64,000 bases of DNA from Sideroxyarcus sp. (lineage in GTDB: Bacteria; Pseudomonadota; Gammaproteobacteria; Burkholderiales; Gallionellaceae). Below, piece after piece: positions 593 through 40,943 of this stretch. The notes beneath the pieces were generated by a model. That model saw only the letters and a program-made list of their open reading frames with translations. It had not been told where the DNA came from and searched no databases. Each line of letters begins with the position of its first letter. Position 1 is the stretch's first letter. The translations under genes and the position numbers were made by a program. The DNA is taken from NCBI GenBank assembly GCA_030651895.1, contig JAUSBR010000017.1, positions 19,869 to 83,868 on the forward strand. Direction: 5' to 3'.

Positions 593-1654
593 ATGTCCAA
601 TATAACCATAGAGCCGAGAATGCAGTACGCTAACTATGCAGAGCATGGAATTGCAAATAATGCTCGTTTCAATCTAGGTAATTCCATCGACAGAGACGAT
701 AGCAATTATCCATTCTGGTTGTTGCGAGAGCGGTTGCTGTCAAGTGGCATTGAGCTGAATACGCCAGACGTAAATGCTGGGCGCGCAATTGCGTTTGAAT
801 TGCATATGAATGTGATGCAAAGAGAGCGGGATGGACAGGCATTTGTTTTGCTGATGGAGACGGCACAGATATGCCCGCTAAACGAGTCGCAGGCTTTGCT
901 CGCCCAATATGATCGGATATTCACGTGGCGAGATGATCTGATTGACGATAAGCGGTACTTCAAGATCAACTTTCCGAATAAGCGGCATTCAATGGAGAAT
1001 CGTGGCTGGAAAGATCGTGATCGGCTGTGCTGTTTGATTGCCGGCAATAAACGACCAGCTCAAACGAGTTCGCTGGATTTATACGAGGAGCGGGTTAAAA
1101 CCATAAGGTGGTTTGAGCAACACGCGCCTGGTCAGTTCGATTTGTATGGAAGCGGTTGGGAGATATCGCCGCCGCACTCTGGCAGGATAGCTAGGCTGTG
1201 GCATAGGATCGCCTTGGGTATCGCGCGCAAGACGGGGTACAGGGCATTCCCGTCATTTCAAGGAAGGGTGGAGCGCAAGCTTGAGACGCTTGGCAAATAC
1301 CGATTTTCAGTTTGCTATGAGAACGTGAAAGACCTGCCCGGTTATATTACTGAAAAGATATTTGATTGTTTCTTCGCCGGGTGCGTGCCCATTTATTGGG
1401 GGGCATCCAATGTGTCTGATTACATTCCGGTTGATTGCTTCATTGACCGTCGCAAATTCAGCAATCATGAGGATCTATACCGGCATCTCGACCAGATGTC
1501 TGAAACAAGCTATCAGGCACACCAATTAGCCATTCAAAACTTTCTGAATAGCTCGGCAGCCCAGATGTTTTTTGCAGAGAGTTTTGCTGAGCAGTTAACA
1601 AATACGATTGTTTCTGCGTTAAGTGATTCAGAGTGCATGCCCAAGAGTCTCTGA
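593..1654 (+). CDS. GT10-family fucosyltransferase (alpha-1,3/4-FucT-like)
   Basis: Motif YRFSVCYENVKDLPGYITEKIFDCFFAGCVPIYWGASNVSDYIP typical of GT10. Confidence 0.88.
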   Translation: MSNITIEPRMQYANYAEHGIANNARFNLGNSIDRDDSNYPFWLLRERLLSSGIELNTPDVNAGRAIAFELHMNVMQRERDGQAFVLLMETAQICPLNESQALLAQYDRIFTWRDDLIDDKRYFKINFPNKRHSMENRGWKDRDRLCCLIAGNKRPAQTSSLDLYEERVKTIRWFEQHAPGQFDLYGSGWEISPPHSGRIARLWHRIALGIARKTGYRAFPSFQGRVERKLETLGKYRFSVCYENVKDLPGYITEKIFDCFFAGCVPIYWGASNVSDYIPVDCFIDRRKFSNHEDLYRHLDQMSETSYQAHQLAIQNFLNSSAAQMFFAESFAEQLTNTIVSALSDSECMPKSL

Positions 1655-1670
1655 TAGGGGAGTTCCAGAC

Positions 1671-2549
1671 ATGGTGATATCTAAGGTCATTGGTGGGCTT
1701 GGTAACCAAATGTTTCAATATGCTGCAGGACGTGCCGCGTCGCTGGCGCAGGGTGTTCCTTTGCGATTGGACATTTCGGGTTTTACCAATTATGGGCTGC
1801 ATCAGGGTTTTGAACTGAATCGTGTATTTAACTGTTTGGCTGATATTGCGTGTGAAGGGGATGTTCGCCGAATTTTGGGTTGGCAATATTTGCCGATAGT
1901 TCGGGAAAAATTAGCACGGCCAAGCCTGTCCATATGCCGTGGCAAAGGATATGTCATAGAGCCGCACTTTCACTATTGGCAGGGTATTGAGAGCATCCCC
2001 AAGGAATGCTATTTGGTGGGGTATTGGCAATCAGAGAAGTATTTTCAGAATGAAGCCGCAGCAATTCATGCTGACTTCACATTCAAGTTGCCACTGTCAG
2101 GCCCCAACAAGGAGTTGGCCGACAAGATCAGTCTGGAAAATGCAGTAAGTCTGCACGTGCGTCGCGGTGACTACGCAAATAATCCAATTACCACGGCTAC
2201 TCATGGGCTTTGCTCAATTGAGTATTATCAAGCTGCTATTAGCCATATCGCCGAGAAGGTGGAAAGCCCCCATTTTTATATATTTTCTGATGATGTGAAT
2301 TGGGTAAAGGAAAATCTCAAAATAAACTTTCCTTGTCATTATGTTGGACACAATCAGGGCGCTGAGAGCTACAACGACATGAGGCTAATGAGTTTGTGCC
2401 GACACCACATTATTGCCAATAGTTCATTTAGTTGGTGGGGCGCTTGGCTTAATCGCAATCCCAATAAAATTGTCGTTGCACCAAAGAAGTGGTTTGCAAA
2501 CACAAACAGCACGCGAGACTTGTTTCCGCAAGGCTGGGTTACGTTGTGA
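1671..2549 (+). CDS. GT11-family alpha-1,2-fucosyltransferase
   Basis: N-terminus VIGGLGNQMFQYAAGRA, HVRRGDY and SSFSWWGAWLN motifs of GT11; start chosen at ATG 1671 rather than the longest ORF start. Confidence 0.9.
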   Translation: MVISKVIGGLGNQMFQYAAGRAASLAQGVPLRLDISGFTNYGLHQGFELNRVFNCLADIACEGDVRRILGWQYLPIVREKLARPSLSICRGKGYVIEPHFHYWQGIESIPKECYLVGYWQSEKYFQNEAAAIHADFTFKLPLSGPNKELADKISLENAVSLHVRRGDYANNPITTATHGLCSIEYYQAAISHIAEKVESPHFYIFSDDVNWVKENLKINFPCHYVGHNQGAESYNDMRLMSLCRHHIIANSSFSWWGAWLNRNPNKIVVAPKKWFANTNSTRDLFPQGWVTL

Positions 2550-24985: not shown

Positions 24986-25012
24986 GTAAAAAAGCCCGGC
25001 TAAAGCCGGGCC
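24986..25012 (-). terminator. Intrinsic terminator downstream of csp
   Basis: GCCCGGC-TAAA-GCCGGGC stem; U-run (TTTTTT) on minus strand. Confidence 0.85.
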
Positions 25013-25060
25013 TTTCCGGCAGGACTGATGGCACGACTTGTCGTCATGCCAGCCCGCCGA

Positions 25061-25267
25061 TTATTCCGCTGCGCGGATGTTCGAAGCTTGCTGACCCTTG
25101 GGGCCGGCAGTGACGTCGAAGCTGACTTGCTGACCTTCGGTCAGGGTCTTGAAACCCGAACTCTGGATCGCGGAAAAGTGAGCGAAGAGGTCATCGCCGC
25201 CGTTAGACGGGGTGATGAAGCCGAAGCCCTTGGAATCGTTGAACCACTTAACTGTACCTGTTGCCAT
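25061..25267 (-). CDS. CspA-family cold-shock protein
   Basis: [52 protein letters not shown]; start at 25267. Confidence 0.95.
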
Positions 25268-25492
25268 GATGAATCTCCTTATAAACATACAAGTGGGACG
25301 AAGTCCCACACTAGGGCGATGGTCAAGACGGCAAGAAGATGAAGGAAGGATTACCGCAGAATACGGAGACTAACCAGACAGCAACAACAGAACTTGAGAA
25401 TCGCGGGCGGCACTATGTACTGTATCGGCAGGAATAGCAAATGAAATTATGGGTATCGGCCCCGGCGGGGTGAAAAAGGCCAAACTGAGTAG

Positions 25493-25521
25493 TTGACAAT
25501 ATAAGTGTTTAATAATATTCT
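25493..25521 (+). promoter_or_regulatory. Sigma70-like promoter for candidate sRNA
   Basis: TTGACA (25493-25498), 17-nt spacer, TATTCT (25516-25521). Confidence 0.65.
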
Positions 25522-25527
25522 AATTGG

Positions 25528-25630
25528 CAGTGGCGCAAGCCACCGCATGTTTCTCCTCCCTGAGCATGCTGTCTTGACTCCCCTTGTGTTAAGACATTTG
25601 CCCCTGATCCGTGTGGTTCAGGGGCTTTTT
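25528..25630 (+). ncRNA. Candidate trans-acting small RNA with CU-rich loops
   Basis: Promoter upstream; hairpins 25530-25543 (GTGGC-GCAA-GCCAC), 25545-25569 (GCATG-TTTCTCCTCCCTGAG-CATGC), 25570-25596 (TGTCTTGA-CTCCCCTTGTG-TTAAGACA), then terminator. Confidence 0.65.
25600..25630 (+). terminator. Intrinsic terminator of candidate sRNA
   Basis: GCCCCTGA-TCCGTGTGGT-TCAGGGGC followed by TTTTT. Confidence 0.87.
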
Positions 25631-25647: not shown

Positions 25648-25703
25648 TGGCGTGGTGGCGTGGTGGCGTGGTGGCGGGGTGGCGGGGTGGCGGGGTGGCG
25701 GGG
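25648..25703. repeat. 8-bp G-rich tandem repeat, 7 units (TGGCGTGG x3, TGGCGGGG x4)
   Basis: Read directly; uninterrupted period 8. Confidence 0.95.
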
Positions 25704-25784
25704 TCAGCAGGCACTGGCAAGATGTCTTGCCTCATTTGCGCGCCCGCCTTATGTAGCCTCCGCCGGACAGCGCGCGGCACTGAA

Positions 25785-40747: not shown

Positions 40748-40912
40748 CATCTGTCCTTGATACCTGAGAGATTACGGTGTTGGCCGTGTGCCCCTTCGGT
40801 GGCTGATTGAACAGCGCTCTCCAGATTTGCCTGTTCCGACTGGTTCATGGGCCTGAGCGGTTACGGGTGTTGCGCCTTCGGCGGTGCCAATTGGCACGCT
40901 CTCCCAGTCGGT
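40748..40912 (-). promoter_or_regulatory. Tandem glycine riboswitch upstream of gcvT
   Basis: Two aptamers in series on minus strand, each with GGAGAGC ... CCGAAGG(G/C)GC ... ACACCGUAA / ACACCCGUAA ... CUCAGG, directly 5' of gcvT. Confidence 0.92.
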
Positions 40913-40943
40913 TTGAACGGCGGGTGGATTATACCGGAACTTG

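Follow-up and report, generated by a model that had tools for sequence, protein, structure and literature searches.

A probable anti-hemB-type small RNA behind a sigma-70-type promoter in Sideroxyarcus, and a sigma-E-type promoter motif across its family

The sRNA locus and its assignment to anti-hemB

The window (a stretch of 64 000 nt from contig JAUSBR010000017.1 of the Sideroxyarcus assembly GCA_030651895.1) carries a predicted small RNA between csp and an ankyrin gene. The elements of the locus are listed in Table 1; the transcript start was placed 7 nt past the −10 element. The initial annotation, made from this DNA alone, had described the promoter, three hairpins, the terminator stem and the T-run, and all of these were found at the positions given there. 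For hairpin 3 the description of the stem was accurate, but that of the loop was too long, as closing bases had been counted in.

Table 1. Elements of the sRNA locus in the window and its divergent neighbour.
Feature	Position	Strand	Remarks
Sigma-70-type promoter, TTGACA-17-TATTCT	−35 TTGACA 25493-25498; −10 TATTCT 25516-25521	+	Sequence, conservation
Promoter spacer, 17 nt, ATATAAGTGTTTAATAA	Between −35 and −10	+	Conserved; may hold an operator
Predicted transcript, ~103 nt, anti-hemB paralogue	25528..25630	+	RF02837 match
Hairpin 1, GTGGC-GCAA-GCCAC	25530..25543	+	GNRA-capped 5′ hairpin, outside the Rfam model
Hairpin 2, GCATG-TTTCTCCTCCCTGAG-CATGC	25545..25569	+	Anti-Shine-Dalgarno loop UUUCUCCUCCCUGAG at 25550-25564
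Hairpin 3, GTCTTGAC-TCCCCTTGT-GTTAAGAC	25571..25595	+	8 bp, one G-U; CU-rich 9-nt loop UCCCCUUGU at 25579-25587
Intrinsic terminator, 8-bp GC-rich stem GCCCCTGA/TCAGGGGC	25600-25625; TTTTT 25626-25630	+	
csp, cold-shock domain protein, divergent neighbour	25061..25267	−	Pfam CSD, 3.6e-30

The predicted fold recovers all four stems at −46.8 kcal/mol, compared with −26.3 ± 3.2 kcal/mol for shuffled sequences (z = −6.4; 0 of 200 shuffles as good). The promoter scan alone revealed no excess over chance (2 found versus 1.0 expected in shuffles), and the sRNA terminator is unlisted in the terminator scan, its loop exceeding the 8-nt maximum of that scan; both elements stand above chance because they are conserved in relatives. 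Two reading frames starting with GTG cross the region, one of 83 aa on the plus strand and one of 63 aa on the minus strand. A coding gene was rejected, as homologues differ by one- and two-base indels which break both frames, and the earlier statement that the locus holds no credible ORF is thereby borne out. An 8-bp minisatellite (TGGCGGGG/TGGCGTGG, 7.1 copies, 25648-25704) follows directly after the sRNA terminator.

At the Rfam gathering thresholds, the only match in the window is a glycine riboswitch aptamer at 40831-40916 on the minus strand (62.5 bits). The Rfam search proposed in the initial annotation did identify the sRNA at a relaxed threshold: it matches anti-hemB (RF02837) with 46.0 bits (E 7.9e-10) over model positions 1-81 of 81. 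This is 3.5 bits short of the gathering score of 49.5 bits, and the window copy is therefore filed as a diverged paralogue rather than as a strict Rfam member. It aligns to the full model, shares the consensus structure and covaries jointly with hemB-linked copies. The anti-hemB place is beside hemB, with transcription away from it. The window copy is unlinked to hemB, and this place is taken in the same assembly by another copy, which scores 62.9 bits and is located between hemB and ysxC/engB. The latter is the anti-hemB orthologue, and thus the window RNA is a paralogue; loop 2 is identical in the two. Our own covariance model (R1), whose training set included the window copy, gives it 104.1 bits.

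The anti-hemB motif reportedly originates from Weinberg and co-workers in 2007. It is a widespread but little-studied RNA to which no function is known to have been assigned. The orthologue in Burkholderia cenocepacia, ncS04 (Burkholderia RNA 7), is a 105-nt RNA demonstrated by dRNA-seq, RACE and Northern blot which binds Hfq, and its level was unchanged in the conditions tested in Burkholderia (PMC5688073, Table 2 there). Common to anti-hemB and the window RNA are hairpin 2 with the same anti-Shine-Dalgarno loop, hairpin 3, the terminator and a length of about 105 nt. The window copy differs in having its second CU-run in loop 3 rather than in the terminator loop, and a sigma-70-type promoter instead of the sigma-E-type promoter of the family; the latter is a feature found here and lies outside the Rfam definition.

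Conservation of stems and loops

RF02837 matches were found in 77 of 81 genomes of the bacterial family, many of which hold two to six copies. According to their neighbours, these were sorted into the hemB-ysxC-linked copy and dispersed paralogues. R1 extends the distribution over the order, with matches in 110 of 150 genomes and 66 of 91 genera. Plasmid-borne relatives were sought at blastn sensitivity, without a match. In genus g12, genome G028 (L068-L072) has six anti-hemB-type matches, two of them nearly identical and with related flanking ORFs.

When 27 copies, hemB-linked and dispersed, were aligned, 97.5% of the cells were paired, and 16 of 27 pairs had compensatory changes. All four stems covary. 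The covariation value is 0.437, compared with 0.216 for shuffled alignments and at most 0.10 when the pairing partners are slid. Hairpin 1 revealed changes on both sides in all seven pairs, and the stem of hairpin 2 is paired in 100% of cells. For hairpin 3 the figure is 99%, with four of eight pairs compensatory, and for the terminator stem 98.6%.

The 27 aligned copies had been chosen partly by their CU motif, and loop conservation was therefore judged on the 87 copies that the covariance model detected. Loop 2 keeps TCTCCTCCCTGA in 62 of these and CCTCC or CTCCC in 84; as R1 was itself trained on motif-bearing copies, both counts are upper bounds. A conserved sRNA with CU-rich loops complementary to ribosome-binding sites is strongly supported.

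The other loops vary with the kind of copy. Hairpin 1 is capped by a GNRA loop in all five sigma-70-type copies, in 31 of 43 other paralogues and in 20 of 39 hemB-linked copies. The second CU-run of the hemB-linked copies is in the terminator loop (22/39) or, rarely, in loop 3 (2/39); that of the sigma-70-type copies is in loop 3 (5/5) and never in the terminator loop. Both arrangements are represented among the other paralogues, and only one of the 87 copies has a CU-run in both loops. A subfamily in genus g12 (L054, L057, L060, L074 and L077) carries an anti-Shine-Dalgarno motif (UCCUCCC or similar) in loop 3 and has an altered loop 2.

Sigma-E-type and sigma-70-type promoters

Almost all copies are preceded by GGAACT-N17-TCTGA or a near variant, which is the RpoE/sigma-E consensus. 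Scored against a fixed consensus with a threshold of 9 out of 11, the motif was found at 25 of 25 copies from the wider order, 36 of 39 hemB-linked copies and 31 of 43 other copies, and at none of the five sigma-70-type copies. The same threshold was reached by 1.6% of random windows taken at these loci and by 2-4% of shuffles. Of 21 genomes in the genus to which the window copy belongs, 19 encode an RpoE scoring above the TIGR02939 cut-off; no such RpoE was found in the window's own assembly, which is 73% complete. The upstream regions of rpoE themselves bear TGAACT-N17-TC. From the motif and the presence of RpoE, we infer that the family may be sigma-E-dependent; the unchanged level of ncS04 in the conditions tested in Burkholderia speaks against this. 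A promoter of this type before nearly all family members appears to be a new observation: no report linking anti-hemB with RpoE, sX13 or ErsA was found in the literature searched, which is no proof of absence. It would place anti-hemB among the envelope-stress sRNAs, such as MicA, RybB and ErsA.

At the window copy and at the copies in genomes G001, G038, G055 and G051, a sigma-70 promoter replaces the sigma-E-type promoter. In G070 the same sigma-70 promoter precedes a sixth copy, which is shortened and has an intact loop 3 but a decayed loop 2. This set of copies occurs in only a few genomes, all from one genus. Neither the second copy, nor the sigma-E-type promoter elsewhere in the family, nor the exceptional status of the window promoter could have been read from a single sequence. 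Some paralogues in other genera (L061, L065, L080 and L095) have a GCATATGC-like palindrome near the −10 element in place of the sigma-E-type promoter.

The sigma-70 promoter pattern occurs in five of the 81 genomes, once per genome and only at the sRNA. A wider regulon under the spacer motif was rejected on this ground, as none of the 81 genomes has a second site. The spacer has 94% pairwise identity among four genomes, compared with 33% in the 60 nt upstream. Since sigma-70 requires no particular spacer sequence, this conservation could plausibly reflect binding by a regulator, and the 17-nt spacer is a candidate operator.

The number and place of paralogues vary, loop 2 has been lost in the G070 copy, and the copy set is narrowly distributed, all of which would suit a decaying duplicate, that is, a paralogue which has gone out of use although its structure is still apparent. 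However, promoter, stems and loops have been retained, whereas identity upstream of the promoter is down to 33%, and the changes in the stems are compensatory. We therefore regard decay as improbable. As an anti-hemB-type sRNA, the locus is probably a real feature and of an ordinary kind, unusual only in the history of its promoter: it is homologous to anti-hemB, its structure is conserved, the ancestral copy is present in the same assembly, and the promoters of the two are of different types.

Possible mode of action and wider relationships

We consider it likely that the window locus encodes a trans-acting sRNA of the anti-hemB kind, which pairs through its CU-rich loops with Shine-Dalgarno regions and is driven by sigma-70, as opposed to the presumably RpoE-induced canonical copy. 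The RNA would be transcribed from the sigma-70 promoter and end at the terminator. Loops UUUCUCCUCCCUGAG and UCCCCUUGU would then bind Shine-Dalgarno or G-rich stretches in several mRNAs, and this pairing, probably with Hfq, would prevent their translation. Envelope stress, acting through RpoE, would switch on the canonical hemB-linked copy; in the absence of that stress, an identical loop 2 would come from the window copy, which would have its own control. Occlusion of ribosome-binding sites is expected by analogy with two other RNAs. sX13, a likely distant relative, represses mRNAs by means of C-rich loops acting on G-rich motifs near start codons, as demonstrated with loop and target mutants (PMC3771888), and ErsA represses algC and oprD in an AlgU-dependent manner (PMC8395346). 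Expression of the window RNA, use of its promoter and its targets are predictions.

Candidate targets were surveyed in the four genomes with a csp-linked copy. GGGAGGAGA is located shortly before the ATG of pilJ in three of four genomes and of a gene for a DolP-like BON lipoprotein in three of four; these sites, which fit loop 2, fall at the Shine-Dalgarno sequences. AAGGGGAG was found at nuoK in three of four genomes, by identical site sequence (two read), and at a gene for a NapC/NirT cytochrome in two of four. Loop 2 duplexes with the candidates reach −20 to −22 kcal/mol (lowest value over 103 start sites in the window, −13.0) and loop 3 duplexes −15 to −17.6 kcal/mol (minimum at window start sites, −15.0), values which leave out mRNA structure and which rank the candidates rather than test them, as these had been selected for complementarity. 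The target list is weakly specific because an anti-Shine-Dalgarno loop fits any good Shine-Dalgarno sequence. The product of pilH belongs to the same chemosensory system as that of pilJ. Since sX13 regulates pilH (PMC3771888), pilJ is a lead of note.

Titration of a protein, with the RNA serving as an Hfq, CsrA-like or Crc-like sponge instead of pairing with mRNAs, seems very unlikely. CsrA or Hfq-Crc sites are expected to be GGA or A-rich, whereas the loops are exact anti-Shine-Dalgarno sequences. RNA-binding proteins could indeed attach to the unpaired pyrimidine runs and the U tail, and ncS04 does bind Hfq (PMC5688073), but sX13 acts by loop pairing (PMC3771888).

The supposition that the RNA may belong to an already described toxic or Shine-Dalgarno-targeting family of Betaproteobacteria was right as to a known family, which is anti-hemB, and wrong as to the Betaproteobacteria toxic small RNA (RF02278; ncS27, S17). 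The latter shares a CU-rich unpaired 5′ loop complementary to ribosome-binding sites and a terminator hairpin, and it does match weakly (21 bits, E 0.046). The gathering score is 50 bits, however, and the toxic sRNA has two hairpins as opposed to four, its model lacking hairpins 1 and 3; anti-hemB scores 46.0 bits on the same bases. Membership is thus refuted by score and hardly credible, and a shared mode of action remains compatible.

An action in cis on csp, or a csp-linked thermosensor element, would agree with the adjacent and divergent csp in four genomes (G000, G001, G038 and G055) and with the resemblance of the csp gene and leader (24986-25419, minus strand) to the cspA thermoregulator RF01766 on the other strand (71 bits, cut-off 78), but the csp gene lies outside the predicted RNA, and the unlinked same-promoter copies in G051 and G070 already make a cis role highly unlikely. 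The likeness of the csp gene and leader to RF01766 is seen in relatives as well.

Returning to the anti-hemB-type RNA, we found that its family reaches beyond the order. R1 matches about 25 gammaproteobacterial genomes at the class level with E 1e-5 or better, and in most of 20 loci examined YsxC and/or PolA adjoin. The polA-ysxC locus is the place of spf (Spot 42) in E. coli. In the gammaproteobacterial alignment 93% of cells are paired, with a covariation of 0.557 versus 0.167, figures which are somewhat favourable as the alignment was fitted to the model. GAACT-N16-18-TC[TA]nA lies upstream of 24 of 31 matches, ErsA and sX13 loci included, compared with 2.7% of random windows.

For some of the gammaproteobacterial loci, the models of sX13 and ErsA also give matches, at scores under their cut-offs. 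All five sX13-model loci are polA-adjacent. One of them (L211 in G385, 1499-2255, minus strand) has four tandem R1-matching copies between polA and ysxC, each with a GGAAC-type promoter; for one copy the sX13 model, too, gives a match, just under its cut-off. Comparison of the window RNA with sX13 (RF02232, Xanthomonadaceae) had been a good guess in the initial annotation, as the intermediate loci match both models. The two have a 5′ hairpin, C-rich loops and a GC-rich terminator in common, and sX13 shares the polA locus of the family; yet sX13 works without Hfq (PMC3771888). ErsA (Pseudomon-1, RF01719) is polA-adjacent in a Pseudomonas-type genome and has the same promoter type (a GAACT-type ECF promoter), a CU-rich terminator loop and translational repression in common with the family, but no anti-hemB-type loop 2; at the sequence level the link is marginal, R1 matching it with a score of 22 bits (E 1e-5 in a search of 3.1 kb). 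alpha-r14 (RF02344) and other CCUCCUCCC-type RNAs share CU-rich, anti-Shine-Dalgarno-like loops, and a gammaproteobacterial relative cross-matches alpha-r14 weakly (31.3 bits, cut-off 58.8). The window copy itself gave no match up to E = 10 to sX13, ErsA (gathering score 50 bits for both) or alpha-r14.

Spot 42, alpha-r7 and sX13 have been noted to share the polA locus and C-rich loops without sequence similarity (PMC3771888). No mention of anti-hemB-type RNAs as bridging this gap was found in the literature searched. The extension of the family to Gammaproteobacteria between polA and ysxC, with intermediates leading to sX13 and weakly to ErsA, thus appears to be new, as do the small sigma-70-type set with its second CU-run in hairpin 3 and the family-level insight into sigma-E-type control and taxonomic range. 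The sX13 paper had asked if such RNAs are also encoded at polA in other bacteria (PMC3771888), and the polA/engB synteny gives part of the answer.

It is possible, if somewhat short of probable, that anti-hemB, sX13, ErsA and perhaps Spot 42 are one old family residing beside engB/ysxC, next to polA in Gammaproteobacteria and to hemB in Betaproteobacteria, and ancestrally driven by an RpoE-type factor. The copy of one genus would have escaped: it would have moved and gained a dedicated sigma-70 promoter with a conserved, operator-like spacer, and it has its second CU-run in hairpin 3 rather than in the terminator loop. The window copy is a natural promoter-swap experiment. On this reading, the cell would possess the same anti-Shine-Dalgarno regulator in two versions, one induced by stress and the other under separate control.
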